Assembly: GCA_026874595.1 (NCBI GenBank)
Contig: CM049319.1
Location: 2,818,601-2,882,600, forward strand
Source of the DNA: Sipunculus nudus
Lineage: Eukaryota > Annelida > Sipuncula > Golfingiida > Sipunculidae
DNA length: 64,000 bases
Reading direction: 5' to 3'
The stretch's first letter is position 1. Each line of letters begins with the position of its first letter. Below, one piece after another: positions 1,825 through 63,334 of the stretch. The position numbers and the translations under genes are program-made. Under the pieces are notes generated by a model. It did not search any database, was not told where the DNA came from, and saw only the letters and a program-made list of their open reading frames with translations.

Positions 1825-1969
1825 GTTTGTTGGTGGGGAGATCAACACTTGCTACAATGCTGTAGACAGACATGTTGATGAGGGGCGGGGCGACCAGGCG
1901 GCCATCATCCATGACAGTCCTGTCACAGAACATGTGTGTTACTACTCCTACAAGGAGCTTCAGCAAATG
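1825..1969 (+). CDS. ACSS3: ACSS3 exon 1 of those visible
   Basis: The acceptor is TTGCTTCAG at 1816-1824 and the donor is ATG|GTGGGT. The first base completes a codon begun in an unseen upstream exon, then the frame reads [16 protein letters not shown] and ends in YKELQQM. This is the ACSS N-terminal domain just before the AMP-binding core. The open frame continuing to 2014 is intron read-through. Confidence 0.9.
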
Positions 1970-2571: not shown

Positions 2572-2644
<73 letters not shown>

Positions 2645-20600: not shown

Positions 20601-23600
20601 TTTCTTTCATGCGCAGTAACTCAACATCAACCTACTGCAGCTGTCCCAAATTTACAGGGATGATTGGAACCTATGAGGGCTCCAGACCTATTGTATTACA
20701 GACCTGTCGGAATTCCAATATGGCCACCACAGCCCAAAAGCTGATTTTATTTCTCGTGCGATAACTCAACAACAACATACTGCAGCTTTCCTAAATTCAC
20801 AGGGATGGTTGGTACCTATGAGGACTCCAGACCTATAGAATTACAGGCCTGTCGGAATCCATATATGGCCACCAAAGCCCAATCACTGATTTTCTTTCGC
20901 GCACGATAACTCAACATCAACCTACTGCAGCTTTTCTAAATTTACAGGGATGGTAGGTACATATGAGGGCTCCAGACCTATTGAATTGCAGACCTGTCTG
21001 ATTCCAATATGGCCACCACAGCCCAATAGCTGATTTTATTTCGCGTGCGATAACTCAACAACAACATACTGCAGATTTCCTAAATTCACAGGGATGGTTG
21101 GTACCTATGAGGACTCCAGACCTATAGAATTACAGGCTTGTCAGAATCCATATATGGCCACCAAAGCCCAATCACTGATTTTCTTTCGCGCACGATAACT
21201 CAACATCAACCTACTGCAGCTTTTCTAAATTTACAGGGATGGTAGGTACATATGAGGGCTCAAGACCTATTGAATTGCAGACCTGTCGGAATTCCAATAT
21301 GGCCACCACAGCCCAATAGCTGATTTTATTTCGCGTGCGATAACTCAACAACAACATACTGCAGATTTCCTAAATTCACAGGGATGGTTGGTACCTATGA
21401 GGACTCCAGACCTATAGAATTACAGGCCTGTCGGAATCCATATATGGCCACCAAAGCCCAATCACTGATTTTCTTTCGCGCACGATAACTCAACATCAAC
21501 CTACTGCAGCTTTTCTAAATTTACAGGGATGGTTGGTACATATGAGGGCTCCAGACCTATTGAATTTCAGACCTGTTGGAATTCCAATATGGCCACCACA
21601 GCCCAATTTGCTGATTTTCTTTCGCACGAAATAACTTAACAACAACATACTGCAGCTTTCCCAAATTCACAGTGATGGTTGGTATCTATGAGGGCTCCTG
21701 ACCTATTGAATTACAGACCTGTCGGAATTCCAATATGGCCACCACAGCCCAATAGCTGATTTTATTTCGCGTGCGATAACTCAACAACAACATACTGCAG
21801 ATTTCCTAAATTCACAGGGATGGTTGGTACCTATGAGGACTCCAGACCTATAGAATTACAGGCCTGTCGGAATCCATATATGGCCACCACAGCCCAATTG
21901 CTGATTTTCTTTCGCACGAAATAACTTAACAACAACATACTGCAGCTTTCCCAAATTCACAGTGATGGTTGGTATCTATGAGGGCTCCTGACCTATTGAA
22001 TTACAGACCTGTCGGAATTCCAATATGGCCACCACAGCCCGATCGCTGATTTTCTTTTGCCTGCAATAACTCAACAACAAACTACTGCAGCTTTCCCAAT
22101 TTTACAGGGGTCATTAGTGCCTATGAGGAATCCAGACCTATTGAAAACAGACTTGCTCAAAATCAAATATGGCTAACAGACTACATTCGGTGATTTTCTA
22201 TGGCACACATTATTTCAGACATATCTTCTAAATCTTTAATATCATTTGATCTAGTAGGATTTTTTCCCTCATGCATATGGATAAAAACCTGTTTCTGTTT
22301 GTCATATTTTTCAAATTTAACTTAATTTTTCACCCATATGTAAACTAGTACAGCACTAGCAGAAATGCGGGGCCCTCCGAGGACCATTGTCAAACCACAT
22401 CTAGGTATTTTTAATTTACTATCATTATTACAATGGATATAACACCCCTGGTCAATTTTTCAATTCTGCCATTAAATTTTAATCTTGTTTTTGTTGGTTT
22501 GACTGTTAGCAACTTTATGCAAAATGTTCTGTACAGATTTTGATGAAATTTTTAGAGGATTGGGACAACACACAAGGAACAATTCATTAAATTCTATAGT
22601 TATATGAATCATCATTTTAGTTTTTTAATGCAGAGGATTCTGTCCCATTGTCACATACAACTGTACATACAACTATTTCTTTATTAATGGTTCGACCTTT
22701 CCATTCATATGTATTAGAGCCATTATTTGTAAAGAAACTTATCATGTGAACCCATGTTACTGAAGTACAATATTGAAGCTTATAAACACAAGCTTGATTA
22801 TGATGGTCCTGACAAGGGTATCTGGTAGTTGCATCGTAGGAAATCAGAACTACCTACCATCCTTTTTAACTGTAAGTGGACTAACCCATTTAAAGGATAA
22901 CCCTGTGGTAAACTAGGCTGAAAGTGACAAACCCTCACTTTGTCTCTATAGCCTGGGTGAGATTGATGTGTGGCCATTGTGCAGCCATATTTGCTACATC
23001 CAGCACAAGTCACTATGTGGCGCTAAGAAGCTAAATGTTAATTGACGTAAGGGGAAACCTCTTTTAAGTACCCACTATGTTTGTATAGCTCTTTAAGAAT
23101 TATGCTTAATCCATGGGCTGGCAGTATATGTTTCAGCTTATTAATAACAACCGTTCCAAATTTGGACAAACCTTTTTGGTTATTTAAAACTTAAATTGCT
23201 TTGTTGTTTTTATTTTTATCTGTGAGAGAAATCCTGCAGTATGACCACACATACATCTTAGTTATAATTATTTTAATTTACTATGTATCTGTTTGTTACT
23301 CTTAATGCAGGCCATCTTGGAGCATGATGATGTGACTGAGGCAGCCGTTGTCGGTCTCCCTGATCAGCTTAAGGGCCACGTACCCCTTGGATTTGTGGTG
23401 CTCAAGAAAGGTAAATAACCAGGGGAGCTCTGAGTGCAGTGCAGATCCCTCTAACAAGGCTTAACATTCTGACATTTATAAAGGTAAATAAGCAGGGGAA
23501 CTGGATTGCAGATCCCTCTAACAAGGCTTAACATTCTGACATTTATAGAGGTAAAATAAGCAGGGGAGCTCTGAGCAGAGTGCAGATCCCTCTAACAAGG

Positions 23601-26600: not shown

Positions 26601-29600
26601 AACATTCTGACATTTATAGAGGTAAATAACCAGGGGAGCTCTGAGTGGAGTGCAGATCCCTCTTACAAGGCTTAACATTCTGACATTTATAAAGGTAAAT
26701 AACCAAGGGAGCTCTGAGCAGAGTGCAGATCCCTCTAACAAGGCTTAACATTCTGACATTTATAAAATTAAATAACCAGGGGAGCTCTGAGTGCAGTGCA
26801 GATCCCTGTAACAAGGCTTAACATTCTGACATTTATAGAGGTAAATAAGCAGGGGAGCTCTGAGCAGAGTGCAGATCCCTCTAACAAGGCTTAACATTCT
26901 GACATTTATAAAGGTAAATAACCAGGGGAGCTCTGAGTGGAGTGGAGATCCCTCTAACAAGACTTAACATTCTGACATTTATAAAGGTAAAAAAACCAGG
27001 GGAGCTCTAAGTGCAGTGCAGATCCCTGTAACAAGGCTTAACATTCTGACATTTATAGAGGTAAATAAGCAGGGGAGCTCTGAGCAGAGTGCAGATCCCT
27101 CTAACAAGGCTTAACATTCTGACATTTATAGAGGTAAATAACCAAGGGAGCTCTGAGCAGAGTGCAGATCCCTCTAACAAGACTTAACATTCTGACATTT
27201 ATAAAGGTAAATAACCAAGGGAGCTCTGAGTGGAGTGGAGATCCCTCTAACAAGACTTAACATTCTGACATTTATAAAGGTAAAAAAACCAGGGGAGCTC
27301 TAAGTGCAGTGCAGATCCCTGTAACAAGGCTTAACATTCTGACATTTATAGAGGTAAATAAGCAGGGGAGCTCTGAGCAGAGTGCAGATCCCTCTAACAA
27401 GGCTTAACATTCTGACATTTATAAAGGTAAATAACCAGGGGAGCTCTAAGTGCAGTGCAGATCCCTCTAACAAGGCTTAACATTCTGACATTTATAAAGG
27501 TAAATAAGCAGGTGAACTCTGAGTGGATTGCAGATCCCTCTAACAAGGCTTAATATTCTGACATTTATAAAGGTAAATAAGCAGGTGAACTCTGAGTGGA
27601 TTGCAGATCCCTCTAACAAGGCTTAATATTCTGACATTTATAAAGGTAAATAAGCAGGGGAGCTCTGAGCAGAGTGCAGATCCCTCTAACAAGGCTTAAC
27701 ATTCTGACATTTATAAAGGTAAATAAGCAGGTGAACTCTGAGTGGATTGCAGATCCCTCTAACAAGGCTTAATATTCTGACATTTATAAAGGTAAATAAC
27801 CAAGGGAGCTCTGAGCAGAGTGCAGATCCCTCTAACAAGGCTTAACATTCTGACATTTATAAAGGTAAATAACCAGGGGAGCTCTGAGTGGAGTGGAGAT
27901 CCCTCTAACAAGACTTAACATTCTGACATTTATAAAGGTAAAAAAACCAGGGGAGCTCTTGAGTGCAGTGCAGATCCCTCTAACAAGGCTTAACATTCTG
28001 ACATTTATAGAGGTAAATAACCAGGGGAGCTCTGAGTGGAGTGCAGATCCCTCTTACAAGGCTTAACATTCTGACATTTATAAAGGTAAATAACCAAGGG
28101 AGCTCTGAGCAGAGTGCAGATCCCTCTAACAAGGCTTAACATTCTGACATTTATAAAATTAAATAACCAGGGGAGCTCTGAGTGCAGTGCAGATCCCTGT
28201 AACAAGGCTTAACATTCTGACATTTATAGAGGTAAATAAGCAGGGGAGCTCTGAGCAGAGTGCAGATCCCTCTCACAAGGCTTAACATTCTGACATTTAT
28301 AAAGGTAAATAACCAGGGGAGCTCTGAGTGGAGTGGAGATCCCTCTAACAAGACTTAACATTCTGACATTTATAAAGGTAAATAACCAGGGGAGCTCTAA
28401 GTGCAGTGCAGATCCCTCTAACAAGGCTTAACATTCTGACATTTATAGACGTAAATAACCAGGGGAGCTCTAAGTGCAGTGCAGATTCCTGTAACAAGGC
28501 TTAACATTCTGACATTTATAAAGGTAAATAAGGGGGCTGGACATAGCCTAGTGGTTAAAGAACTGGACATTTAGAGCTGATGTCCCTGGTTTGAACCCTG
28601 TGAATTCATTGGTGGTATGTTGGTGAAATCTCGATAAAACCTCAGAGATTTGTCTAATGTCTTTCTAAAGGTTATGCATATATATAAATGTGAACTCCAG
28701 ACAGCTAACAAATAGCAAATCCTTTTCATTGTATTTTAACCTTCATCCATATTCAATAGACCTTGCCAGCAACAGGCCCTGGACCTATCCTCAAAAAAAA
28801 AAAAAAAAATTAATGCAATAATAATTATTTGCTGTGGTGGGATTCAATTTTAGTTGCTGTGCTTTTGGAAAAGTACATGATGATACAGGATAAGTGAAAA
28901 GCTCCTTAAAGAATCTGTTGAATCTTGAGAACAAATAGTTCTGATGGAAGAATTTTGCTGTCCTAAAGTGAACTATCATTGATTTTTTTTTGTGATAATA
29001 GGGTTCTCCAACCATTTGCATTCAACCCTGTCATGTCAAAACAATTAGAAGCAATATAACATAAAGCTGCCTTGTTCAGATTCGCAGTTATATTCATACA
29101 AGATCACATACATCTCTTAGGTCTCAAGCATTCAATCATTGTGTTTTGTAGCTTTATTTAAGTCCAAGATGCTGTGTTCATATACATTTTCTAAAAATAA
29201 AAACTAATTTTTAAATTGTAAATTAATGGGCTCACATGATTATTCTTGAAAGCTTATTACTGTTTCTAAATTGTTACATTGACAGTTACCTTAAATTTTA
29301 TGCAATTTACCTCTGGCTTATTTTCACCACAGAAAAAAGATAGACTTACATTTTTATCTTATAGGTGTGAAAGAAACTAAAGATGAAGTTTTGAAGAAGG
29401 TTTATCAAGTTGTCAGAGAACACATTGGGCCTGTTGCTGCCTTCAAACAGGCTGTCATTGTGGATAGGCTGCCTAAAACACGATCAGGAAAGATCCCTCG
29501 CAAGACTTTAGCTGCCATGGTGGCTGGAAAGCCATACAAGGTATGATCCCTGTTCATGTGTTATAATCCCTCTCTTGTTAGTCATGTGACATCCTGTGCT

Positions 29601-32600
29601 TAAATATGATTGGCTTATTGTACAAAGTTATGAACCAACAGATCTGGCTGCAGGCTGCAAACTGTTGCTTAAAATGAACACAGTTTTCGCCTGAATTTAG
29701 TTATCTTTCTCAGTATAAGTTTCTGGTTAAAGCATGTTCTTTAATGTTTATTGAACATGGCTTTTCAAGCTTGTTGCTTGAAAAAATGTTTGCTTATTTA
29801 AAGTGAGCAATATTTTGTTTGAATTATTTCTGAACAAGTATCGTTTTTCATTTGTTATTAGCCAGTAGTACTTGTACATCAGTCGTCTGTGACAGGCAAT
29901 TATATCTTGTCCATTAAATATACACTTATAAGTTTGAATCCTCTGATATTAAACCACTTTTTTACAGGTATATAACCACTCTGTTACAGGTACCTCTCTG
30001 AGACAGTCTAATTGCTCTCCTTAATGGTATACATGGATGTCTGTAACCTCACTGATAAAGGAACCATTCTGTTACAGATATGATCCAGAGCCTGCATCAT
30101 CTGTTTGTGTTTGTTATCATGACTTTCCGCTGTACAGTTATAAAATGGCAAATCTGTTACTCGCCTAGCCATAAACATACTTTTTGTCATATAAAGTGAT
30201 GAGTTCACCTTTACATCTGTCCTTTTCTGTTGAATCCTTGTATAACTATATACAGTGAAACCTCAATAGTGGGGACACCCTTGGGACTGGGAGAAGTTGC
30301 CCATTATATGGCATCATGACCGCAACATAAATAATGAGGAGAAAAAAGGGACTTTCAAATATGCCCACCATATACAGGTACCCATTTGAAGGAGGTGCCC
30401 ACAAGGAGAGGTTCCATTGTATATGCTCACGTTATAAAGATAAGCTTCTCTTTTGTACATACAGATCTCTTAATACAGATCTTTTGAATAACATGCTTTA
30501 TACAAACTGCAAAATCATTATGTAGTTAATTGTTCAAGTTGCTAGTGTTCACACAAAACAAAAATGCAGGAATTTTTTGTGTTAAATGAAGTAGTGTATT
30601 CATGCACATTGCTGCAAATTAAATCATATATTTTTTTTTCTGGCGTCTGTTTAAGATATTGGGCATTCTTGGTCTACTTTAATTGCTGGTCAGGATCTCC
30701 ACTCAACCTGATTCTTTAGGTTTCTTAACTAAGTCATTTAGCAGCAATAAATGCCTACCTTTTTATATTCTTGCTTCTAGAATCCTTTTCTTTCTCAGAT
30801 TGAAAAATTAAGTTTTTTTTTATTGTGCATATGCCTTGTAGATTCCATCCACCATTGAAGACCCATCTGTATACTTGGTTATCATACAGAATTTGAAGGA
30901 CGCAGGTTTTGATCCCAGCAGCCCATCAGAATAAGCATTTGTTTTTATGGTTAATATGACTTTTTATGTAGTTAATACAATGTCATCTGGAAGGTGGTGG
31001 CTACTAACCTGCACTTAACATTTACAATATTATGCTATATAATGTTGTAGTTACAGTAAACATCACTGCTGTTAGTGATCAGTGCCACCTAGTGTTAAGT
31101 CTTTAAATCAGAGTGTTTCCATTGCAGTACAGTTGTAACCTCTACACTTGTACATCATCTGTTCTAGGTAAGGATGATCATTTATTTTGTATTATGGAGT
31201 TTTCTCTCAGTGAAACGTCTGATTTATTAAATGGACACTAGATGGCATTGATCTTAATGTATTTAGGATGTGTTTACTCTAACATGAGCTTTTATTTATT
31301 AGCTCACCATTAGCTCATCATTAGTGTATTAATAAATGTGGCTTTAGTATGGTGATATTTATAAGAAAATACTACAAACATAACTATACTACTTATTAAA
31401 AATTTAAATATTTTAAACTCTGTTATACCAGAGTGTATAACATTCAATAATGCCTAAACATTTCAAAGTAAACAAAATAATGTTTATTGCCAATGTAGGT
31501 CATTTCGCAGGTCAAGAGATGGAAAATCTAGACCCAAAATGCACATTGATTTATGTAATAAAATTGCATAAAATATTTATGGAGCATCTCACATCAATTC
31601 TTCTTGTTGAGCACTTGATAAATTAGTAATTCCTATCGGGAGTTTTATGTTGGTCTCATATTCTGTTTTGCATATTTGATAACAATAATTACATTAATTA
31701 ATGAGAAGTTCCTGTTCATAGGTGTGGTGGTAGAATTCAAATTGCTGAAAACTGAGGAAAATTATATCACAAAATCCTAAAGTTTCTGTGTGATAACTCA
31801 TCAATTATAGATAAGAAATTTTTTATCGGTAAGAAATAATTGTGTCTGGGTGTAGATATGGCTGTGGTACAGCTAATTTTATGTCATCTGAACTGTACAC
31901 AGGACAAGGCCATGTTCCTCATTGTGTAGCTACCATCTCCCATATATGTCTGCCCTCCAATTTGGGAGACATATATAGTTTGTGCTGTCGCCACTGTCAT
32001 TATTTATGAATGCATTCACGTAGAACCAGTCATTTTTTTCATGAAATTCCAAATTTAAATTGTACCTAAAAATACCTCAGATAAGTTAGAAAACTGGTAA
32101 CCCAGACCTTCATCATCAAGCCGGAACAGAAATTATGTGAGAATGCTATAAATTTTGCGAGAATGCTATAACTTTAGAACCACTCAGTATACTTTTATGA
32201 ATCTTGACTCATAAAATGCTTCTATCAGAATCTTAGAAGTGAAAAAAACTGTGAAATTGACCTTCATCTGCAAGGTCAAATCAGTCAGAATAGAAGTTTT
32301 TTGTGAATGCTGTGACTTTAGAAGTAGTTCGTATTTCTTTCCTCAAATTTACGTATGGGGGGTCCATATGGAGGGGAGACGTATATCTGTTTTGCATTGC
32401 AAAAGCAACCTCATTCTAGTTCAACATGGTTATTGGTTGTGGCAAACCTGAAATTAGGTTTATGTGACCTATATTTATGTGCTTTTTAAAATTCTGTTGA
32501 GCTTCATGGCCCAAGGGTCACTAGTTTTAGTTCTCAGTCAGAAGTTTATGCTCAGTGTTTTATAACTAAGATGACCAGTTTTGATATTTTTTAATCTTGA

Positions 32601-35600
32601 ACCATTGTATATCTCAGACCCAGTGTTTAATGAGGTTTTCCTGCTCTGTATGTGCCTTGTAGATCCCGACCACCATTGAAGACCCAACTGTTTACTCACA
32701 TGTCATAAAGGATTTGAAGGATGCAGGTTTTGAAGCCAGCAGACCTTTAGACTAAGCATTTATTTTCTGATGGTTAATATGACTTTTTTTCTCATAGCAT
32801 ACCAAGATAACATAATGTCTGGGTGGTGGCTAACAACATGTCTCTAACTTTTCAAATGTGATACTGTAAAACCCAGTTTACAGTAACAATTACAAGCAGC
32901 AGTTGCCAGCACCACCTGGTGTTCAGTCTTGAAATTAAAAGTTCAATTTAACATTAACATTTATGTTAACATTAACATAAACATTAATCTATTAATCCTA
33001 TTTCAGTTGTTTCTTTATTATTCTGACAATCTGAATATTTAAAGTCCTGTAAAGATGTATTTTCAGGAATTCTCAGTGATAAAATTCTCTTCTGTAATTA
33101 AATTTGCCCTCAGTTTTTGTTTTAATGTATAACAAATACCCCAAGTGGCCTTGCTGAATAATTACTGTAAGTTTCTCTGTGTTTTACGGTACCACATGCT
33201 TCTTGCTGTAGATGCTGACTGCTGTTATGTTCTAACTGCTTGCTCTCTGCGGTGTTTTAATACATTGGAGTATAAGACTAGTAAATTGTAATTATGTAAA
33301 CATGCCGCCTTGTATTGCAATGATGATCAAGGAACTGCTGTGATCATAATTATGGTGCTTGTCCTATTAAAAGCTTATGCTTTGCAAGGGTGCATCGGGT
33401 ATGTAATGCCTGAACAATTAAATGATGTAAAACACTGTGCAAGTTAAAGAAAGACTCATTAAAGGTCAAGCGATAGAAAGATACAGATCCCCATTTTATT
33501 TGACAAAAATTAACATAAATCCATGTATTTAATACATAGACATTGAATGGGAAATTGCTACAGTTGGTGTAGCTACTGACATAGTAAATGATACGGTATG
33601 ACCACCAGTGATGGAGGCTTGGCCTTGGAAGGTAATGACTCAGACTCATAACTATTTTGTATACATGCATTTGAACTCAGTCCAGAATTCAGACATTGAT
33701 TCTTAGTTGTATGGACTTGGTTGGTGGTGATCCACCTGGGTCTCTGTGTTGGAGGGCCATTACACAGAATATGTCTTGACCTAGCCAAAGGGCCATGACT
33801 AAGCCACATCCTTGGAGGGCCATTACACAGAATATGTCTTGACCTAGCCAAAGGGCCATGACTAAGCCACATCCTTGGAGGTCCATTACACAGAATATGT
33901 CTTGACCTAGCCAAAGGGCCATGACTAAGCCACATCCTTGGAGGGCCATTACACAGAATATGTCTTTACCTAGCCAAAGGGCCATGACTAAGCCACATCC
34001 TTGGAGGGCCATTACACAGAATATGTCTTGACCTAGCCAAAGGGCCATGACTAAGCCACATCCTTGGAGGGCCATTACACAGAATATGTCTTGACCTAGC
34101 CAAAGGGCCATAACTAAGCCACATCCTTGGAGGGCCATTACACAGAATATGTCTTGACCTAGCCAAAGGGCCATGACTAAGCCACATCCTTGGAGGTCCA
34201 TTACACAGAATATGTCTTGACCTAGCCAAAGGGCCATGACTAAGCCACATCCTTGGAGGTCCATTACACAGAATATGTCTTGACCTAGCCAAAGGGCCAT
34301 GACTAAGCCACATCCTTGGAGGTCCATTACACAGAATATGTCTTGACCTAGCCAAAAGGCCATGACTAAGCCACATCCTTGGAGGTCAATTACACAGAAT
34401 ATGTCTTGACCTAGCCAAAGGGCCATGACTAAGCCACATCCTTGGAGGTCCATTACACAGAATATGTCTTGACCTAGCCAAAGGGCCATGACTAAGCCAC
34501 ATCCTTGGAGGTCCATTACACAGAATATGTCTTGACCTAGCCAAAGGGCCATGACTAAGCCACATCCTTGGAGGGCCATTACACAGAATATGTCTTGACC
34601 TAGCCAAAGGGCCATGACTAAGCCACATCCTTGGAGGTCCATTACACAGAATATGTCTTGACCTAGCCAAAGGGCCATGACTGAGCCACATCCTTGGAGG
34701 GCCATTACACAGAATATGTCTTGACCTAGCCAAAGGGCCATGACTAAGCCACATCCTTGGAGGTCTATTACACAGAATATGTCTTGACCTAGCCAAAGGG
34801 CCATGACTAAGCCACATCCTTGGAGGGCCATTACACAGAATATGCCTTGACCTAGCCAAAGGGCCATGACTAAGCCACATCCTTGGAGGGCCATTACACA
34901 GAATATGTCTTGACCTAGCCAAAGGGCCATGACTGAGCCACATCCTTGGAGGGCCATTACACAGAATATGTCTTGACCTAGCCAAAGGGCCATTACTAAG
35001 CCACATCCTTGGAGGTCCATTACAATGAATATGTCTTGACCTAGCCAAAGGGCCATGACTAAGCCACATCCTTGGAGGGCCATTACACAGAATATGTCTT
35101 GACCTAGCCAAAGGGCCATGACTAAGCCACATCCTTGGAGGGCCATTACACAGAATATGTCTTGACCTAGCCAAAGGGCCATGACTAAGCCACATCCTTG
35201 GAGGGCCATTACACAGAATATGTCTTGACCTAGCCAAAGGGCCATGACTAAGCCACATCCTTGGAGGTCCATTACACAGAATATGTCTTGACCTAGCCAA
35301 AGGGCCATGACTAAGCCACATCCTTGGAGGTCCATTACACAGAATATGTCTTGACCTAGCCAAAGGGCCATGACTAAGCCACATCCTTGGAGGTCCATTA
35401 CACAGAATATGTCTTGACCTAGCCAAAGGGCCATGACTAAGCCACATCCTTGGAGGGCCATTACACAGAATATGTCTTGACCTAGCCAAAGGGCCATGAC
35501 TAAGCCACATCCTTGGAGGTCCATTACACAGAATATGTCTTGACCTAGCCAAAGGGCCATGACTAAGCCACATCCTTGGAGGTCCATTACACAGAATATG

Positions 35601-38600
35601 TCTTGACCTAGCCAAAGGGCCATGACTAAGCCACATTCTTGGAGGGCCATTACACAGAATATGTCTTGACCTAGCCAAAGGGCCATGACTAAGCCACATC
35701 CTTGGAGGTCCATTACACAGAATATGTCTTGACCTAGCCAAAGGGCCATGACTAAGCCCCATCCTTGGAGGTCCATTACACAGAATATGTCTTGACCTAG
35801 CCAAAGGGCCATGACTAAGCCACATCCTTGGAGGTCCATTACAATGAATATGTCTTGACCTAGCCAAAGGGCCATGACTAAGCCACATCCTTGGAGGGCC
35901 ATTACACAGAATATGTCTTGACCTAGCCAAAGGGCCATGACTAAGCCACATCCTTGGAGGGCCATTACACAGAATATGTCTTGACCTACCCAAAGGGCCA
36001 TGACTAAGCCACATCCTTGGAGGGCCATTACACAGAATATGTCTTGATCTACCCAAAGGGCCATGACTAAGCCACATCCTTGGAGGGCCATTACACAGAA
36101 TATGTCTTGACCTAGCCAAAGGGCCATGACTAAGCCACATCCTTGGAGGGCCATTACACAGAATATGTCTTGACCTAGCCAAAGGGCCATGACTAAGCCA
36201 CATCCTTGGAGGGCCATTACACAGAATATGTCTTGACCTAGCCAAAGGGCCATGACTAAGCCACATCCTTGGAGGGCCATTACACAGAATATGTCTTGAC
36301 CTAGCCAAAGGGCCATGACTAAGCCACATCCTTGGAGCGCTATTACACAGAATATGTCTTGACCTAGCCAAAGGGCCATGACTAAGCCACATCCTTGGAG
36401 GGCCATTACACAGAATATGTCTTGTCCTAGCTAAAGGGCCATGACTAAGCCACATCCTTGGAGGGCCATTACACAGAATATGTCTTGACCTAGCCAAAGG
36501 GCCATGACTAAGCCACATCCTTGGAGGTCCATTACAATAATATGTCTTGACCTAGCCAAAGGGCCATGACTAAGCCACATCCTTGGAGGTCCATTACACA
36601 GAATATGTCTTGACCTAGCCAAAGGGCCATTACTAAGCCACATCCTTGGAGGGCCATTACACAGAATATGTCTTGACCTAGCCAAAGGGCCATAACTAAG
36701 CCACATCCTTGGAGGGCCATTACACAGAATATGTCTTGACCTAGCCAAAGGGCCATGACTAAGCCACATCCTTGGAGGTCCATTGCACAGAATATGTCTT
36801 GACCTAGCCAAAGGGCCATAACTAAGCCACATCCTTGGAGGGCCATTACACAGAATAAGTCTTGACCTAGTCAAAGGGCCATAACTCAGCCACATCCTTG
36901 GAGGGCCATTACACAGAATATGTCTTGACCTAGCCAAAGGGCCATAACTAAGCCACATCCTTGGAGGGCCATTACACAGAATATGTCTTGACCTAGCCAA
37001 AGGGCTGTGACTAAGCCACATCCTTGGAGGTCCATTACACAGAATATGTCTTGACCTAGCCAAAGGGCCGTGACTAAGCCACATCCTTGGAGGGCCATTA
37101 CTTGGCCTCTGAGGGTTGTAACTCGACTACAAAACTGAGGACCATGTTACATGGGCTGACAAAATTCTGTAACTGAGGAGTTCATTCCTGTGGCTCCTCT
37201 TCCTCCAAGATGATAGTTCTGGGCAAAAAAAAAAAATTATCTATGTTCAGCAGGTCAAACCCTGGTGTATTTTAATTTTTAGCTCAGCTGACTATAAGTC
37301 ATCTGAGCTATAGTCGTGGTCCATTGTCCGTCGTCCGTCCGTCTGTCTTGCTGTCCGTCCGTCCGTCCGTCTGTAGATGTGGCATGTTTTGAAACCGTAA
37401 GACCTAGGAATCCAAAATTTGGCATAATGTTAGATGTCCCCAAGATCTCCTACCAAGCTGAAAACTGGGTCTTTGCAGCTTCGTGCCTTTTAGAAATTAA
37501 GGAAAAACCTCAATTTTTTATTAAAAACCTATTTTTACACTTCAGGACTGCCTAATATCAAAACCACTCATCTGTTTTTCATCATATTTACCATAATTAT
37601 TCCTCTATATAGTTCCTATGTACATGCCAAAAATTATGTCTGTATTATGTAAATTTAAAAAGTTATGGGCCCAAACATAATGCATTGTGTAAAAAATCAG
37701 GAAAGATATTTGATCACTTAACACAAAATATGTTAAAGCTATAAACTTTTTTTCCAGTAATATAACTTTAATTAATCAAAATTAAATTGTATACCCAAAA
37801 TTAGATCAAAATCTTTTAAATTTTTTAAAATATTAACAAAAATAAAAAATTGGTACCTTAAATTTTGCCCAACTTTGACCATGGCACGTTTTTTTCCTGT
37901 AAGTACTGTGGATTTAATTTTCTAAGCATGTTTTTTTAGCATTTTGTCTGTAAACACCGAAAATTTGAAACCAGTTGATCAAAAACTGTAGATTTTATTC
38001 AAGTTTTCAAGCACCATGTAACATATTGTTTACATCAAGCTAGTGTCATGCAGTTTGCAAGTGCTCAGCTCCCCAGCTTCAGCTCTCAGTTCCTAAAATT
38101 TGGCATGCAATTAGATGTCTCAAAAATCCCCTACCATGCCAAGAATTTGGTCACTAGGACTTAATACCTTCGAGATATTAATGAAAAACGTAATTTTTCC
38201 ATTAAAAACCCATTGTTACACTTCAAGACTGCCTAATATCAAAACCACTGATCTGACTTTAATCATATATAATATACATATTTTTCTATACATTCTCTAT
38301 GAACATGCCAGAAATGATGTCAGTATTGCGTAATTGTTTTAAGTTATGGGCCCAAACATAATGCACTTTGTAAAAAATCAAGAAAAATATTTACTCCCTT
38401 AACAAGAGGATTGCTGAAGCTAGAGATTTTTTGTCAGAGATGTAACATTATTTAATCAAGATTCAATTGAATACCCAAAATTAGTTCTGAATTTTTCAAA
38501 TTTTATAAGTTATTAGTATAAATATAAAATTAGTACCTTAAATTTTGCCCAACTTTGACCATGGCATGTTTGTTTCATGTGAGCACTGTTGATATAATTT

Positions 38601-41600
38601 TCATATCATGCACACATAAAGATTTCAACTTTTTAGTTTAAAAAGCTGAAAGAAATTGGCCAAAAATTGTAGCTTTTATTAATGTTTTTATGAGACCATG
38701 TCAGACCTTGGCTCTCTGTAGCACCTCTTGAGTCACCTGTATGTTGACCTTGTTGAACTTTCAGCAAATTATGCATGCTTGAGGCGAGTCATAAACTGGG
38801 GCTCCAGGCAGCTTATTATATAATGGCCAGCCACAGTTGATCCAGGTGTCCAACCCAACTCATCTAGTAGTTTTAACCAACAACATAACAATAAACAATA
38901 AATTAATAAATTTTTATTGGTTTTTAATAACAAATTAAAGAAAAATAGAAAAGGAATTTGTTAGTTGATAATAACAGGAAATTAACTTGCAGTTACTGAT
39001 GATATAAGAATCTTGTATCGATGGATAGAATGTCACGTATTCCAAATAACACCATGCAGTCACCTATGGTATTTTTCAGTTCAATTTTAATGATAAAAAA
39101 GTAAATCATATTATTCATTACTAATCATTAGGGATCATATGAAGGAAATTAATGATAGACAATGATGCAGTTTATATTTAATATAAATAAAAGCCATAAA
39201 ACCAGGTACTTATGATCATTATTTAAATGTGTGAATTTTGTATATTCTGGATTCTCAACATCATTGTTTGGTGAAAACTGAATAAATACCAGACATGGTG
39301 TGAATACTTTGCAATTGTATTTAAACACTAATATGAATATGTACTCCATTATAAAATTTCTTTCATAAGAATGGGAATTCAGGTAAAAATGAAAGTATAT
39401 GAATACCAGTGCAAATACTTTCAAAATGTATTAATGAATGCATTCATGAATATATTCTTTAATATTATTTTAATAATCATTTCAGTCATATTTTATTTGA
39501 AAAAATCATAATATTCTCTTATATTTGGGACAATATTTGTAATTTTTTTAATAAATAGTTAAACTCTTATATTATATGTTCTGCTTAAATTTTATATGGC
39601 CAAGTCAAAATCTGTGTGACAATTGCACTCCATTTGTTTATAAAATAAATTAAATTAATCCTCTTTCCTGTCTCCAAAGTACTATCAAAATCATACATAA
39701 GCTAAACAACAACAAATCATAATACAGCTTATTTTTGTTACCACATAAAACCAGCATGTGCCTCATTTCTAAATCATACTTTTTTATCATATATAACAGC
39801 TGAGTGCCGTGACCCATAGGTCCCTTGTTTTAGTTTTAATATTGAAAAGTCTGAAGTCTTTACAATGTGATCAGGATGAGAAAGTCACTATATCAACAGC
39901 CGGGACATGGTTTTTATCTTGGTGCTGGTTCCAAGTAAACAGTTTGTTCCATATCTTGTCTGAGTTGACCCTAGGGAATGGTTTCAGTTCTTTTCACCAG
40001 GTGTCACTAGGTTCAACTTTAACTTTAAACTATTACCTCCATTGGAATTAACTGATATTCTGAATACCACAGTGTTTATACATTATCACTACATGTACTT
40101 GTGGTAATGCTTGAAATGTTTTGCAGTGAATGATGTATATAACACATTGTTTTCAGATCTATCTTACTGATATAACCTGCACAAAAATAGTTGATTCCAT
40201 AATATTCATCATTTTGTTGTATGGGCACACACATAGTAACACTTGCATTTACATATACCCTTTCTTACATATACATGTATGTTTATGGTTTGTGTATATT
40301 TGCAAGCGTGTGCTTTTTTTTTTATTTTAATTTGACACCTGATTGCCTATTTGTTGCATGTTGCAGTGAGATTTTGCTTCCAGAGCTTGTGCCATGCTTT
40401 GCAGTTTACCAGTCCTGCTTATTGTATAATGATCCATATCAAGATCACCATGCCACTGTAGTAAAAAGAATGCCCTTTATTAGGTGACTGTGTGTAAAAA
40501 TATTTTGTTTTATTAGTGATATCATATTTTATCAAAAATGTATTATACAGTGAAATTTTGTTTGCCAAGCAGTCAGAAAATAGTTAAACACATTCAAGGA
40601 TTAAAACATTGGGTTTCCTGGATAATAAGTTATCTAAACTTTGCAAGGATCTATAGATTATGCCTCTTTACACAGGATGTAAACTTTTAGTACCGAGTCT
40701 TCAGTTTTTTAGGACTGCCTTTATAACATGTATTTGGCTTTTTAGAAATAGGCTTTTTTAAAAAAAAAATCCCTGTCATATACAATTCTCCTGTGAACAC
40801 TAAAGCTGAAGGTTTTGAAAATCATCAAGGAAATAATATAGATAAGTTCTGATGTGTAAAATTGGACAAGTCCTGTGTTTACTAGTTGGTTAAATCTGTG
40901 GTTTAGGTTTATCTGACAGTGTGGACTTTCTAAAGGGTTGGAAATCAGTGGGAAACTATTAGATTATTGGAGATCCAAATATTGAAATGATGGATCTAGA
41001 CTAAATTACTTTCTGTTATTCAGGAAATGATAATTTAAATGTGCAACTAAATAAACCAGATTATATGCTTAATTTTTATCCTTCAGTTCAAAATATTCAA
41101 AAATATATTACTGTATTTTTCCCTGCTGCGTTTTTATTCTCAAATCAGGTTTTAAACATTTGACATAGGGGTTATTAAACATAATTGAGTTTGACTAAAT
41201 TGTTGTTCCCACACAAGCTACTGTGGTCTTGCAGAATAATGAAATTATGAATGTTAAAAATGGAATGTATTGTGCATGGGCTTCAGGTTCCAAGTGCTAT
41301 AGAAGACGCTTCAGTTTATGCTGCTATAACAATTGTTCTACGTGATGAAGGCTATGATCCAGTAGACCCGCCCGTATAGGTCATGTGACCTGTTGTGTCA
41401 CATGACCAATAGTAAATACTCATAGGTTTGTACCAAGTCCTCTCCTACACTCCCTCTCTTATACTGCACTTATGTAAAAAACGCTTATTTGCATGAGGCT
41501 CATTGATTGGCCAATGTACACTAATTAGAATTAGTCTTGTGTTGTCTTGTAGTCTAGTTGTTTGTTTATAAATGGTATATAATCTTTCATGCATGGTATA

Positions 41601-44491
41601 TTACAGTATATTCATTATTTAAACAAACTGCCGTTATATATAGACTTTTGCACAGATATGTTGTTTTGTCTTGTTGATTGTGTATAAATTATGCAAATTG
41701 ATACATGGTACATTTCAGCATGTTTATTCATTTAACAAAGTTAAATTATATTATACATATGAACAAAGGAACAATGTATAGTTTTAATGTAAAGTTAACA
41801 CTTTAAATTCTGGTAGTCAAGTAAATTTCAAGGTATTTCACCTACTGCACTGAAAATAAATTAATATTATAAAGCTTAGTATGCAGCCCATTTAAGGAAT
41901 TTAAACTGTTAAGTTGACCCTTTTATACACTGTGTTATAGTGTATGATTATTCTGCAATGAACGGGGGGAAATTTTTATTTTAAAGATTGTTTATCATGT
42001 TATTTATTTTTTTATGAATAAAACTAAATGATCAACCAACAATTAAAAACCAGAAGTAAAATCTCTTTTATTCTGATACTGTAAATTAATAAGGGGCAAT
42101 TGAATCTTGAGTAATAAGCCAAACTTGGGACCTGCCAAAACTGGTCTTAGTCCATAGGTGGTCTTATATAATTGGTCAGTTTTAACTGAAGTGGGTGCTT
42201 ACAGTCTTTTGAGAGAAGTGGTCTTTCAGACAGGTTCTCCTGTATTAAGCAACTCACTTTTAGCATCCCTGCTGGTTACCTTGTCTCCCACCAGATGTCA
42301 CCACTGCACATACTTCTGTAGAATCTTTTATCTTCTTTCAAATGCATCAGGCTTAAACTTCTGACAGCATAATTATTTAACTTACAAACAACCTCTTCTT
42401 CAGCAAACCTGCAAGGGGTCACTTTGTTATAACTCTACAGTTTAATTGATCAGACCTTGACACTTACCTGTATTACTATGGTAACAGTTTCTTGTTAAGA
42501 TTAGTACTTTCTTCAGGAGATTCTGAAAATGACAAACTATTACTGATGCACATTCACTCGCTTGCATTTTCCTTTAAATACACAAATGGTCTTTTTTTCT
42601 TTTTTTTTTATATGTATAATCTCAAGCAGCAGTTATTTGTTGCAGTCATTCCAGATCTCCTTTGTTATAACTGCTTTTTTTTTCAAGTTTCTTTGGGTCT
42701 CAAAAACAGGGCTGGCACAGGGCCATTAATCAGAGCAATGATAGCAGGGTGTTGCAGGTTTAAACCTCAGGGGTTATATGCACAATGGGATACATGTACC
42801 ATACTCACATTGGTCTGATTACAATTCTTTACCTGTGTCAGCCCTGGTGGTGAAACCTGGAGACTCTGGCTATACACAGCAGCGGTTAAAGCGAAGGAGA
42901 TTAAAAACAACTGCAGTGTGTAACCACTGCCTGAGGAGTGCATGTTTGGTGGCTGGACTTTTGATACAGTGGTTTAAATAAATTTAAATTCAAACTTGCT
43001 AAACGGGTAATTTATTAATTGAATCAGTATAATAAGTTAAAAATATTCTGTGTTGTTGAACTTTTGACACAGGTGTTAAGATTAACATAAATTTTAATAG
43101 CTGGTTGTTGAACTTAAAATAAAAGTTTTATTTTTTATCTTAAATGGAGTTGTTTAAACTTCCAAAAAAATTGTTCAGATTAATTTTGATTTAATTTTAA
43201 GTCTTGTTTATCTTAAAAAAAATTAACTATATTTTTTCTATCCTTGACACAGCCAAATTTTTTTTTAATTTCCAAGCAAGGTCAACAAGTGTATCAACCT
43301 TTTGTTGGTAATTTAAGTTACACAGTTAAAGTTACCTGCATTCACTCAATCACCACAAGTTTCATATTTTCTGGACTGTTATATTCTTATCTGTACATTA
43401 CCTAAAATCATACTTGTAGTTCCTTTCCATAAATCTTGAGCAAGAGATTTTATTAATTGAGACAGTAGATTTTTTTTCAGTGTAAATCACTCCAAGCTAC
43501 CGGACATAATTTAAATTCCAATAATTCTCTCCATAAATGGCCAATATATCTGAATAATATCTATTGTGGGACATTAGAATATATGTAAATCATACCTGAA
43601 ACAATCTGACCCAATCTTTAACAAATTAAATAGTACTAATATTGGTGGTAGTAGTTGTTGTAATTTGAAAGTTTATGTGAATATTACTTTTACTGATAGG
43701 AATATTTTGCTGCCAGTAATGAAGTGACCTTGTGAACAAAGATAGATTAATGATATTTATGTATTTATTGTCTTGCTAGTACATATTTCCAGGGTAATAT
43801 TAAACTATGTAATGTTTTTGTTTATTATTTCTGCTTCCTTATAACTGGTAATAAAGTGACTTGGTAAGTATGAATCCAGATTAAATATGTGCATATAGGC
43901 GGCTTACCTTTAAAATATAAAATAGTATATAGTGTAATGATGCAGTGATTGTATAAGTATTTAAAAGTAGCTCTTTAGTAGTTTGACTAAGGACTCTATT
44001 TGTATACAAAACATTTAACTGTTGGTTCTGATATCTTCTCTAAAAAATGTGAATCTTTTGTGTCAATGATGAGATTACATGCAATACACTAATATGAAAC
44101 AAAGTTTGATAATCAGTTGATGATTAAGTTGGTCAGATGGCATCTTCAGAGTCATGTTTTCATATACATTGTGTACATAGGTGAGTCTTTTAATAGAAAT
44201 GTGACTTATAATATATAATGGAGAATTTACTGTAATTATTTATTATCATATATAAAAGTCATTGTAAAATGTACACATAAATCAGAGATTAATATAAAAT
44301 GATGTACTGATTGAGCACAGGTTGAAGATGAAAATATATGTAATGTTGTTTATGGGATTTGTATTTTATTTATTTATTTTTTTTAACATTTATTTCAGAT
44401 TCCATTAACCATTGAAGACCCCACAGTGTACAGCAATATTATAAATGTTTTAACTCAACGAGGCTACAAGACATCAACACCCAGGAAGTAA
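1825..44491 (+). CDS. ACSS3: Acyl-CoA synthetase short-chain family member 3 (ACSS3-like), 5'-partial, with four alternative last exons
   Basis: ATP-dependent AMP-forming synthetase that activates propionate or acetate to the acyl-CoA; family members are usually mitochondrial. Internal exons: 1825-1969, 5558-5746, 6450-6587, 7288-7431, 10581-10661, 11455-11550, 11906-12057, 14609-14712, 15576-15671, 16982-17045, 17965-18043, 18259-18381, 23311-23410, 29365-29540, then one of four 93-bp last exons. All junctions are GT-AG and keep frame, giving 592 residues against about 686 for human ACSS3, so about 90 N-terminal residues are missing. Visible motifs: [16 protein letters not shown], then [13 protein letters not shown], the AMP-binding loop TSGTTGTPK (exon 4), [10 protein letters not shown] (exon 6), WWQTETGS (exons 8-9), [10 protein letters not shown] (exon 12) and the C-terminal catalytic-lysine motif TRSGKIPR (exon 14). 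The FVGGE start block and TIED tail fit ACSS3 better than ACSS1 or ACSS2; that choice is from remembered family features. No upstream exon, promoter or presequence was found in 1-1824. Confidence 0.93.
2571..2640. repeat. (TA)n microsatellite
   Basis: About 70 bp of almost pure TA dinucleotide in ACSS3 intron 1, with one TG interruption. It produces spurious YIYI open frames. Confidence 0.95.
3262..3545 (+). repeat. Possible tRNA-derived SINE
   Basis: GGGGTAGAGCACAGGACTCAAG followed at tRNA spacing by GAGTTTTAATCTC resembles degenerate A and B boxes of an RNA polymerase III promoter. The 3' limit is a guess. It lies immediately upstream of the Harbinger-like element in intron 1. Confidence 0.4.
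3610..5430. mobile_element. Non-autonomous PIF/Harbinger-like DNA transposon
   Basis: The ends are inverted repeats of about 33 bp beginning GGCCAGACTTTTTTAAT, at 3610-3642 and, inverted, at 5398-5430, differing by one base and one indel. Both sides are flanked by TAA (3607-3609 and 5431-5433), a three-base target duplication of the TWA type. This and the GG start fit PIF/Harbinger. No transposase was recognised inside 1821 bp. It lies in ACSS3 intron 1, 127 bp before exon 2. Confidence 0.8.
4662..4769. repeat. Perfect 54-bp tandem duplication
   Basis: Positions 4662-4715 and 4716-4769 are identical by eye. It lies inside the Harbinger-like element, so it may be a copy-specific recent duplication. 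Confidence 0.95.
5558..5746 (+). CDS. ACSS3: ACSS3 exon 2
   Basis: Acceptor ATAACAG, donor GAG|GTAAGA, 63 codons in phase 0. It encodes [12 protein letters not shown], then the conserved [13 protein letters not shown] and [15 protein letters not shown] blocks of the AMP-binding domain. The acceptor lies 127 bp downstream of the right end of an inserted Harbinger-like element. Confidence 0.93.
5805..6290. repeat. Dispersed repeat, copy 1 (intron 2)
   Basis: It resembles 14962-15460 along its length: shared blocks include GGGTCCAATTATCAACAAGGTAAATAAA-type, ATATGAGAAATC, GGCAGTCAAGGTCA and ATGGCTACTCAT-type segments in the same order. No terminal repeats or coding capacity were seen. Confidence 0.7.
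6450..6587 (+). CDS. ACSS3: ACSS3 exon 3
   Basis: Acceptor TCATTTCAG, consensus donor AAG|GTAAGT, 46 codons in phase 0. It encodes [20 protein letters not shown] and ends in IILNRKYMK. The last ~30 bp of this exon plus its donor are repeated in the following intron (see 6588-6885). Confidence 0.92.
6588..6885 (+). repeat. Tandem copies of the exon 3 end and donor in intron 3
   Basis: The exon 3 end (ATCATTCTCAACAGGAAGTACATGAAG|GTAAGT) recurs as TCATTCTCAACATTAAGTACATGAAG|GTATGT near 6709-6739 and again near 6850 in a shorter form. The stretch between copies (CACTGGTAACCTA, ATCCTGTATCGTTCTG) is repeated too. It is a decayed three-unit tandem duplication anchored on a splice donor. Confidence 0.85.
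7288..7431 (+). CDS. ACSS3: ACSS3 exon 4 (AMP-binding loop)
   Basis: Acceptor ACTTCAG, donor AAG|GTGACG, 48 codons. It encodes [27 protein letters not shown] and the P-loop-like AMP-binding signature TSGTTGTPK at its 3' end. This motif identifies the ANL adenylating superfamily. Confidence 0.95.
8046..10486. mobile_element. Unclassified dispersed repeat with internal tandem units (intron 4)
   Basis: The left end AGCTCAGCTGACTG is nearly inverted at the right end, CAGTCAGCTGAGCG (10447 onward), which runs on to TGACCCATGGGTCACTTG. The interior has repeats of about 335 bp containing CACAAATCGTAAC and GGACCTAGAA, then another repeat type. Related ends occur at 37281, 39795, 32496 and 50168. No transposase was seen. 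Confidence 0.7.
8375..9882. repeat. Seven copies of the palindrome GGTGGCGCCACC
   Basis: Perfect 12-bp palindromes at 8375, 8712, 9442, 9591, 9722 and 9871, and one with a single change at 9048. They lie within the dispersed repeat of intron 4, in different surrounding unit types. Confidence 0.9.
10581..10661 (+). CDS. ACSS3: ACSS3 exon 5
   Basis: Acceptor CTCAAACAG, donor GAG|GTTAGA, 27 codons in phase 0. It encodes [11 protein letters not shown]...[14 protein letters not shown], directly continuing the TSGTTGTPK block. Confidence 0.92.
11455..11550 (+). CDS. ACSS3: ACSS3 exon 6
   Basis: Acceptor GACTGTAG, donor GAG|GTATGT, 32 codons. It encodes [20 protein letters not shown] and then [12 protein letters not shown], a conserved part of the ACS adenylation domain. 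Confidence 0.94.
11906..12057 (+). CDS. ACSS3: ACSS3 exon 7
   Basis: Acceptor TTTTAAG, donor CCA|GTAAGT. It encodes [16 protein letters not shown] and [15 protein letters not shown], and ends two bases into a histidine codon completed by exon 8. Confidence 0.93.
12058..14391 (+). other. ACSS3 intron 7, mostly without recognisable content
   Basis: AT-rich sequence with no exon, RNA gene or clear repeat recognised until the exon 8-related repeat at its 3' end. Short open frames on both strands look accidental. Confidence 0.6.
14392..14636 (+). repeat. Four-unit tandem repeat of the exon 8 acceptor edge
   Basis: Unit starts after an acceptor-like CAG at 14392, 14465, 14537 and 14609 (spacing 73, 72, 72). 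Each begins with a version of TTTCCGGAACATGTTCGTGG. The last is the real exon 8. The upstream three run into TTTGAATGA or equivalent stops soon after. Confidence 0.9.
14609..14712 (+). CDS. ACSS3: ACSS3 exon 8
   Basis: Acceptor TATTGTCAG, donor ACAG|GTCAGT. It encodes [18 protein letters not shown] and LDNWWQT. Three decayed copies of its acceptor and first ~25 bases lie immediately upstream at 72-73 bp spacing. The true exon is the only one that stays open beyond them. Confidence 0.93.
14962..15460. repeat. Dispersed repeat, copy 2 (intron 8)
   Basis: Same order of blocks as 5805-6290 (GAGGTAAATAAATACCT, AATATGAGAAATCAG, ATGGCAGTCAGGGTCA, ATGGCTGCTCATGCAG). The copies have diverged substantially. 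The short open frames in it are not supported as genes. Confidence 0.7.
15576..15671 (+). CDS. ACSS3: ACSS3 exon 9
   Basis: Acceptor CTTATTCAG, donor AATG|GTAAGA. It encodes [20 protein letters not shown] and then [11 protein letters not shown]. It completes the WWQTETGS motif from exon 8. Confidence 0.92.
16982..17045 (+). CDS. ACSS3: ACSS3 exon 10
   Basis: Acceptor TGTTTCAG, donor GAA|GTAAGT, 64 bp. It encodes [20 protein letters not shown] (with exon 9's last base). Frame is preserved across both junctions. Confidence 0.9.
17965..18043 (+). CDS. ACSS3: ACSS3 exon 11
   Basis: Acceptor CTTCTCCAG, donor CCA|GTAAGT. It encodes [20 protein letters not shown] and ends YFNIP. The KLPLPP block is shared with ACSS3 relatives. 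Confidence 0.92.
18259..18381 (+). CDS. ACSS3: ACSS3 exon 12
   Basis: Acceptor TATTACAG, donor GAG|GTCCTT (weaker than the other donors), 41 codons. It encodes [32 protein letters not shown] and ends AGALEE. This is the hinge into the mobile C-terminal domain. Confidence 0.93.
18650..22170. repeat. ~146-bp satellite array, about 24 monomers, with dimeric higher-order pattern
   Basis: Monomers contain ATAACTCAACAACAACATAC, TGCAG, AGGGATGGTTGGTACCTATG, CCAGACCTAT and CCAATATGGCCACC. In the middle, an A form (GCGTGCGATAACTCAACAAC) alternates with a B form (GCGCACGATAACTCAACATC). The array fills much of ACSS3 intron 12 and starts after a GC-rich GTCCTTCC-type leader near 18635. It is less regular at both edges. 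Confidence 0.93.
22171..23310 (+). other. Rest of ACSS3 intron 12
   Basis: No gene recognised. It contains satellite-flanking sequence to about 22400 (possible right end of the element that carries the satellite) and ordinary AT-rich intron up to the exon 13 acceptor. Confidence 0.55.
23311..23410 (+). CDS. ACSS3: ACSS3 exon 13
   Basis: Acceptor CTTAATGCAG, donor AAAG|GTAAAT. It encodes [16 protein letters not shown] and [13 protein letters not shown]. Its donor forms the start of a ~70-copy tandem array filling the next intron. Read-through gives GKstop immediately after the donor. Confidence 0.93.
23411..28530 (+). repeat. 73-bp tandem array (about 70 copies) starting at the exon 13 splice donor
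   Basis: Unit: GGTAAATAACCAGGGGAGCT, then CTGAGTGCAGTGCAGATCCC, then CTAACAAGGCTTAACATTCT and GACATTTATAAA. The first unit begins at the donor of exon 13 and shares AAAG|GTAAATAA with later units, so almost every unit contains a donor-like site. Variants (ACC/AGC after AAATA, GGG/GTG, GAGTGGAGTG/GAGCAGAGTG) recur in blocks. A tRNA-derived SINE interrupts the end. Minus-strand open frames reflect the repeat, not genes. Confidence 0.97.
28531..28690 (+). repeat. tRNA-derived SINE at the end of the 73-bp array
   Basis: GGGGCTGGACATAGCCTAGT followed by GGTTAAAGAACTGGA and, at tRNA spacing, GGTTTGAACCC. These match the A and B boxes of an RNA polymerase III promoter. It abuts the last truncated 73-bp unit. 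The 3' limit is approximate. It is not a tRNA gene, because no complete cloverleaf follows. Confidence 0.65.
29365..29540 (+). CDS. ACSS3: ACSS3 exon 14 (catalytic lysine exon)
   Basis: Acceptor ATCTTATAG, donor AAG|GTATGA. It encodes [29 protein letters not shown] and [14 protein letters not shown], ending AGKPYK. The lysine of TRSGKI is the residue that acts in the adenylation half-reaction and is acetylated in this family. The exon ends in phase 0, so any of the four downstream 93-bp exons can follow. Confidence 0.95.
30250..30422. repeat. Probable dispersed repeat in the intron before exon A
   Basis: CAGTGAAACCTCAATAGTGG and, later, GAGGTTCCATTGTA form nearly inverted ends around GGTGCCC-containing sequence. 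A related stretch, AAAACCTCGTCAATGACCAC, lies at 53139. This looks like a common short interspersed repeat; the class is unknown. Confidence 0.45.
30842..30934 (+). CDS. ACSS3: ACSS3 alternative last exon A
   Basis: Acceptor TGCCTTGTAG, 31 codons including TAA, phase 0. The tail begins [16 protein letters not shown] and ends GFDPSSPSE. It is the nearest last exon to exon 14 (1.3 kb) and is most like exon B (18 of 30 residues by eye). The similarity to B continues about 200 bp past the stop. Candidate polyadenylation hexamers are ATTAAA at 31226 and AATAAA at 31557. It does not end in a peroxisomal PTS1 tripeptide. Confidence 0.88.
   Translation: MPSTIEDPSVYLVIIQNLKDAGFDPSSPSE
31557..31562 (+). 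promoter_or_regulatory. Candidate polyadenylation signal for ACSS3 exon A
   Basis: AATAAA about 620 bp after the stop of last exon A, with ATTAAA at 31226 as a nearer alternative. Confidence 0.35.
31940..32530 (+). repeat. Dispersed repeat copy between exons A and B
   Basis: It ends with GCTTCATGGCCCAAGGGTCA and CTAGTTTTAG, like the ends at 10486 and 39833. Its 32280-32410 part is repeated in inverted orientation near 54785-54900. Confidence 0.55.
32663..32755 (+). CDS. ACSS3: ACSS3 alternative last exon B
   Basis: Acceptor TGCCTTGTAG, the same last ten bases as upstream of exon A; 31 codons including TAA. The tail begins [16 protein letters not shown] and ends FEASRPLD. The length, phase and stop position match A, C and D exactly. 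No AATAAA is seen nearby; ATTAAA at 33097 is a possible polyadenylation signal. Confidence 0.88.
   Translation: MPTTIEDPTVYSHVIKDLKDAGFEASRPLD
33750..37100. repeat. 63-bp minisatellite, about 53 copies
   Basis: Unit: CCTTGGAGGGCCATTACACA, GAATATGTCTTGACCTAGCC, AAAGGGCCATGACTAAGCCA, CAT. Copies differ by one or two bases (GGG/GTC after TTGGA, ATGACT/ATAACT). Because 63 is divisible by three and the minus strand lacks stops, two minus frames stay open for hundreds of codons. This is between ACSS3 last exons B and C. Confidence 0.97.
37281..39835. mobile_element. Unclassified dispersed repeat with ~680-bp internal repeats
   Basis: The left end AGCTCAGCTGACTATAAGTC, a GTCCGTCCGTCCGTC leader and the right end GCTGAGTGCCGTGACCCATA match the element at 8046-10486, but the interior is different. 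Segments near 37506 and 38187 (CACTTCAGGACTGCCTAATA / CACTTCAAGACTGCCTAATA) show an internal duplication. No transposase was recognised. Confidence 0.65.
39836..41286 (+). other. No gene seen between the repeat and exon C
   Basis: AT-rich intron. The open frames at 40130-40487 have no recognisable domain and no splice context. Confidence 0.5.
41287..41379 (+). CDS. ACSS3: ACSS3 alternative last exon C
   Basis: Acceptor GGCTTCAG, 31 codons including TAG. The tail begins [16 protein letters not shown] and ends GYDPVDPPV. About 15 of 30 residues match exon A by eye; flanking DNA shows no obvious similarity to A or B, so it is an older copy. AATAAA occurs at 41855-41860. Confidence 0.86.
   Translation, partial: VPSAIEDASVYAAITIVLRDEGYDPVDPPV
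41855..41860 (+). promoter_or_regulatory. Candidate polyadenylation signal for ACSS3 exon C
   Basis: AATAAA about 475 bp after the stop of last exon C. It is needed if exon C is used as a terminal exon. Chance occurrence in AT-rich DNA cannot be excluded. Confidence 0.35.
42709..42945. repeat. Dispersed repeat, copy 1 of a pair
   Basis: Shares GTCTGATTACAATTCT, CCTGGTGGTGAAACC and AACTGCAGTGTGTAA-type blocks in order with 52538-52815. Between exons C and D. Probably a SINE-like element; the class is undetermined. Confidence 0.7.
44399..44491 (+). CDS. ACSS3: ACSS3 alternative last exon D
   Basis: A long T-rich tract leads into acceptor ATTTCAG; 31 codons including TAA. The tail begins [16 protein letters not shown] and ends in a basic STPRK. 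AATAAA lies at 44587-44592, under 100 bp past the stop. It could be the ancestral last exon, being the most distal, but this cannot be decided from sequence alone. Confidence 0.87.
   Translation: MPLTIEDPTVYSNIINVLTQRGYKTSTPRK

Positions 44492-55594: not shown

Positions 55595-63334
<7,740 letters not shown>

Follow-up and report, generated by a model that had tools for sequence, protein, structure and literature searches.

Four tandem candidate last exons in an ACSS3/PrpE-like acyl-CoA synthetase gene of Sipunculus nudus

Alternative last exons in other genes

In tropomyosin, one common body can be completed by any of several alternative last coding exons. The ACSS3-like gene of Sipunculus nudus that we describe here resembles it in having candidate alternative last coding exons and differs from it in its product, tropomyosin being a structural protein and ACSS3 a metabolic enzyme. 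Tropomyosins are listed among the MXE families in the accessible text of PMC9013439, which also records that tandem exon duplication is common and that arrays of homologous terminal exons, used in a mutually exclusive way, have been described. Drosophila pip, with its eight clusters of homologous terminal exons, is treated there under 3' UTRs, and the paper reports competing RNA structures in PGRP-LC, CG42235 and pip. As far as that text goes, the pip array and the 3' variable regions of PGRP-LC are like the ACSS3 array in consisting of homologous, mutually exclusive tandem terminal exons (for ACSS3 we infer the exclusivity); unlike them, the ACSS3 array shows no competing-RNA-structure signal in the one genome at hand.

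Mammalian Cdc42 offers a view of how such a choice is made. In the accessible part of PMC4870516, the choice between exons E6 and E7 depends on relative acceptor strength and on repression of the proximal exon by PTBP, the distal acceptor being the stronger. Cdc42 shares with ACSS3 the plan of one body with a choice of terminal exons, but it is a GTPase with two such exons and known regulators.

The closest precedent that we can name, going by the available portion of PMC5589949, is the oyster (Crassostrea) AOX gene. Its terminal exon 10 and part of the 3' UTR are tandemly duplicated, giving two C-termini; both isoforms are expressed and shift under air exposure. AOX is a mitochondrial enzyme, and as in the ACSS3 array its terminal exon has been duplicated in tandem along with part of the 3' UTR, the copies having equal coding length and their own stops; one gene thereby encodes C-terminal isoforms, as ACSS3 would do. 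There are differences, too: AOX has two copies, not four, one of its messages carries both exons, and its expression has been shown. In the open-access literature, we found no paper linking ACSS3 with an alternative last exon, and oyster AOX was the sole match for a duplicated, alternatively spliced terminal exon in a mollusc. The kind of arrangement is already known; unusual here are the count of four copies and their place in a housekeeping acyl-CoA synthetase.

The host gene

The S. nudus assembly spans 1.43 Gb in 153 contigs, and the window, by which we mean the whole stretch of DNA analyzed, is 64,000 nt of contig CM049319.1. Our tblastn query was a bacterial propionate-CoA ligase (PrpE) taken from a bacterial contig in the same assembly. 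The parts of the gene that lie upstream of the tails are these:

1847..23412, + strand: upstream coding exons of an ACSS3/PrpE-like gene, placed as 12 homology blocks by tblastn, splice context and family scans
about 29365..29540, + strand: last shared exon, with PKTRSGKI, placed by tblastn, splice context and Pfam AMP-binding_C

The weakest of the 12 upstream blocks is 15551-15679, with E = 0.26 by tblastn alone. Neither the first exon nor a targeting peptide was found with the bacterial PrpE query, and the stretch at ~15.7-18.0 kb is partly unplaced, which leaves the gene model incomplete. The last shared exon holds PKTRSGKI, which we take to be the catalytic lysine region, and closes with the donor AAG followed by GTATGA; AAG is a complete codon, and the join to what follows is in phase 0.

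Joined up, the incomplete model scores 567.6 bits with NF007815 and 524.5 with TIGR02316 (propionate-CoA ligase) against 490.5 with TIGR02188 (acetate-CoA ligase), the two propionate scores lying below the curated cut-offs of 955 and 827.4, which were set on full-length bacterial proteins. For C-terminal fragments alone, TIGR02188 is the top-scoring model. The joined model contains AMP-binding (PF00501, 223.5 bits) and AMP-binding_C (PF13193, 88.5 bits) domains. Its best solved relative is 5gxd, the alignment reaching residue 560 of 565, tail included. The Pfam AMP-binding_C match covers residues 4-78 of a 124-residue fragment in which the tail begins at 95, beyond the end of that model. We regard the host gene as PrpE/ACSS3-like on the strength of propionate-type models outscoring acetate-type ones. 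ACSS3 is the animal PrpE-type synthetase, and our use of the name rests on that.

Four last exons

Past the last shared exon lie four short exons, each of 93 nt:

30842..30934, + strand: alternative last exon A (candidate), 30 aa and TAA
32663..32755, + strand: alternative last exon B (candidate), 30 aa and TAA
41287..41379, + strand: alternative last exon C (candidate), 30 aa and TAG; lacks family residues T4 and P8
44399..44491, + strand: alternative last exon D (candidate), 30 aa and TAA; AATAAA at 96 and 100 nt past the stop

The initial annotation had described such a set, and all of its elements were found again: the coordinates, the AG acceptors, phase 0, the 30 codons and a stop for each exon. 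The four also align without gaps, as it had said, with nine invariant residues (P2, I5, E6, D7, V10, Y11, L18, G22 and P28). Its account of charge held up in part. It had called C hydrophobic, which is true of the last residues only; net tail charge is -4 in A, -3 in B, -5 in C and +2 in D, making C the most acidic tail of all.

Our reading of the locus is as follows. The last exon of a single propionate-activating acyl-CoA synthetase gene (ACSS3/PrpE type) would have undergone serial tandem duplication, the duplicated exon encoding the conserved PrpE-family tail of 23 residues and a 7-residue extension. From the donor of the last shared exon, splicing would go to one of the acceptors A-D in a mutually exclusive manner, and the transcript would be cleaved and polyadenylated past the exon so chosen. 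The outcome would be up to four enzymes with a common catalytic body, differing only in tail surface and last residues. From the sequence, we put at roughly 0.75 the probability that at least two of the tails are used as alternative last exons. On this reading we would expect transcripts joining each tail, poly(A) sites between the tails, and isoforms that differ in regulation, stability or partners.

The tail as an element of the PrpE family

We built a tail profile from bacterial propionate-CoA ligases. Of 547 bacterial relatives 80 were retained, and all 80 tails were used. The search patterns for these relatives came from the shared-exon part and not from the tail, two of the three query rows carrying tails A and D. 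Across 23 columns, the bacterial tails are gapless in 80/80, and six residues (P2, T4, D7, P8, L11 and E13) are invariant throughout. The four S. nudus tails all retain P2 and D7, all carry Y11 for L11 and all lack E13; C alone among them is without T4 and P8. Past the conserved part, the bacterial extension is variable (2-12 residues), as against seven residues with an invariant P28 in A-D.

Against the bacterial profile, A scores 22.5, B 21.3, C 17.3 and D 22.7 bits, with the runner-up at 2.6. They are the top four of 32,516 stop-free 23-mers drawn from six frames of the whole window, a ranking that rules out chance exon-like stretches as the source of the four. Adding a tail also improves the fit of the C-terminal fragment to NF007815, from 67.2 bits without one to 74.2 with A, 75.6 with B, 71.1 with C and 73.4 with D.

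A repeat limited to the tail

How much of the gene was duplicated? Of the 23 matches in a genome search with the last shared exon, one lay on animal contigs and 22 were full or partial prpE on ten bacterial contigs. Whole-gene tandem duplication is ruled out by that single animal copy. Genome queries with three of the tails (B, C and D) produced no match outside the ACSS3 locus, a search of limited sensitivity in that the B and D queries missed C, and a diverged fifth tail copy may exist elsewhere in the genome. A query with the C-terminus of acetyl-CoA synthetase gave strong matches on two contigs, once on each, and no separate tail, a lone tail being hard to detect in this way. No relative turned up among the viral contigs. 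A dispersed or transposon-borne tail is unsupported, the three tail queries, at that sensitivity, matching this locus only.

The region does contain repeats, tandem and dispersed, the one point in favour of the four exons being an artefact of assembly or of repeats. The dispersed ones fall in the A-B interval (about 31944-32432) and past D (about 44730-45170), none of them on exons. A 63-bp tandem array of ~53 copies occupies about 33690-37110, in the B-C interval. It is stop-free over long stretches of the - strand, with open frames of 913 aa and 721 aa, probably owing to a unit length divisible by 3. Further tandem arrays sit in the introns (about 18800-22000 and 23500-28500), with spacings near 145 bp and 73 bp. 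Yet the four exons are on one contig, and the base differences between them (19 to 47 of 93, the minimum being A versus B) exceed what haplotype duplication would give. The surroundings of C, 40700-42000, have no other match in the genome. Taken with the profile ranking and with the confinement of matches for B, C and D to this locus, these points lead us to give next to no credence to chance exon-like stretches or an artefact of either kind. Further along the window there is another gene:

55598-63313, - strand: convergent TRAF-type gene with RING, TRAF zinc finger and MATH domain exons

The bacterial contigs hold a curiosity of their own. Across the ten, prpE has none, one or two further tandem copies of its 3' end, at 279-nt spacing, and in the six bacterial loci read, every extra copy comes after a stop. 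These repeats parallel the animal tail array and are probably unrelated to it. The contigs themselves may belong to a symbiont or a contaminant.

Age of the copies and selection

The sequences next to the exons tell the copies apart by age. Two flanks are homologous to one another:

30935..31124, + strand: 3' flank of A
32756..32960, + strand: 3' flank of B

Of 181 aligned bases in these flanks, 135 are identical, and A and B are also alike across their last 40 upstream bases. On the 3' side, no similarity to another copy could be detected for C or for D. Between these two there is a marginal likeness in the 40 bases just upstream (0.02-0.04 of background sites are as similar, uncorrected for the six pairs compared). 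In the five pairs that include C or D, pS is 0.56-0.82. With synonymous sites near saturation and 3' flanks that cannot be aligned, C and D are old copies; A and B, which have a 3' flank in common, are younger.

Selection had been suggested by the initial annotation, which proposed a comparison of dN/dS among the four exons. That comparison gave dN < dS in 6/6 pairs. A one-omega codon model returned 0.36 on the best tree, which pairs A with B and C with D, and omega = 1 was rejected (p = 0.004); the other two trees were 1.05 and 2.27 log units worse, and omega = 1 was rejected on each with p < 1e-4. Tests of single tips against neutrality fail to reject it (p = 0.36 for A, 0.35 for B, 0.058 for C and 0.66 for D), being underpowered because each tail has only 30 codons. 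Between C and D the contrast among codon positions is small, with identity at 32/60 for positions 1 and 2 and at 15/30 for position 3.

We also simulated neutral decay, asking of each copy that it retain an open frame and its observed profile score. Times were taken from the tip lengths of the codon model (A 0.20, B 0.33, C 1.03 and D 0.94), and the runs started from extant copies, which is an approximation. At 0.9 substitutions per site, 0/4000 runs per start succeeded for C (three starts) and D (two starts). At 0.2-0.3 substitutions per site, the success rate for A or B was 0.27-1.45% (B 0.27% at 0.3, A 0.85% at 0.2). The dN/dS pairs, the omega of 0.36 and the loss of the family profile under simulated neutral decay bear out protein-level selection on the tails as a set, and at the level of sequence comparison they support long-term purifying selection on the set of four.

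Could a single tail, perhaps D or A, nevertheless be the main last exon, the others being recently functional relics or negligibly used? At 0.1 substitutions per site, 3-22% of simulated runs survive, so the recent inactivation of a copy would leave little trace in 93 nt and may have happened; the branch-specific tests lack the power to expose it, and C is already without two residues that are invariant in bacterial tails. Against this, frames, stops and acceptors are intact in 4/4 copies, and C and D retain frame and profile despite synonymous sites that are near saturation. Three separate recent losses would be needed, none of which left a break. We consider a single main exon unlikely and prefer the use of at least two tails. 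That all four are used looks to us like an even bet from these data, with C the weakest case for use, T4 and P8 having been lost there though invariant in 80/80 bacterial tails.

Signals for splicing, polyadenylation and RNA structure

The acceptors of A-D fall at the 84.6-95.7 percentile of 3,795 + strand AG sites, and the 11 other placed acceptors of the gene span 67.2-99.8 (one further acceptor is unplaced), by weights that were generic and untrained. Of the four, A scores lowest, at the 84.6 percentile. By analogy with Cdc42, a weaker proximal acceptor at A would let transcripts reach the distal exons. The first AATAAA or ATTAAA follows the stop by 292 nt in A, 179 in B, 476 in C and 96 in D. 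Such hexamers after the four stops are uninformative because the window is AT-rich and their density, 2.4 per kb, is near the 2.1 expected from base composition.

Splice junctions after stop codons invite nonsense-mediated decay. This weighs against a further reading of the locus, in which the tails would not be mutually exclusive and a downstream tail would also be spliced in as untranslated sequence behind an upstream one. So do the distances involved, the intervals being 1.8 kb from A to B, 8.6 kb from B to C and 3.1 kb from C to D, with repeats in the first two, and so does C, which has no GTRAGK donor-like site within 1.5 kb. The other three stops do have GTRAGK sites beyond them (234, 412 and 311 nt past A, B and D), and the oyster AOXB message, in the part of PMC5589949 available, holds both duplicated exons. 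On balance we judge this arrangement distinctly improbable and keep to mutually exclusive tails.

A docking-selector arrangement was sought by pairing the first 500 nt of the intron with the 150 nt before each acceptor; in this one genome, a fraction of 0.41-0.87 of the background paired as strongly. Around exon C we came upon an inverted repeat:

41379..41407, + strand: inverted repeat GGTCATGTGAC/GTCACATGACC, beginning at the last base of the stop codon of C

Its fold has a z of -1.98 (8/200 shuffles fold equally well), and a genome search that allowed up to 3 mismatches found no second copy. A 10-mer, GTCATGTGAC, occurs at 29581, 41380, 41397 and 45646, four copies against 0.11 expected, all of them around the tail array, and two of them form the hairpin directly past the stop of C. 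As a signal, GTCATGTGAC carries no weight: it had been picked post hoc, and it is one of 22 among 11,520 comparable 10-mers that have four or more occurrences outside the arrays. Just ahead of C, at 41273-41278, is a TGCATG, presumably the RBFOX-binding core, which ends eight bases 5' of the exon.

What the array would mean

Tandem duplication of a terminal exon is a recognized path to new isoforms. A bolder and tentative idea, which the sequence leaves us inclined to doubt, is that all four tails serve a core enzyme of propionate activation as regulated C-termini, each specific to a tissue or a stress. One metabolic enzyme would then be tuned through a four-way last-exon switch, and isoforms ending in the diverged, most acidic tail C or in the basic tail D would have partners or stability of their own. 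A four-member array in a housekeeping acyl-CoA synthetase, its old copies still marked by constraint, would suggest that animals are able to vary the C-terminal end of a metabolic enzyme under regulation. Together with oyster AOX, it raises the question of whether duplicated last exons are a recurrent device in mitochondrial enzymes.
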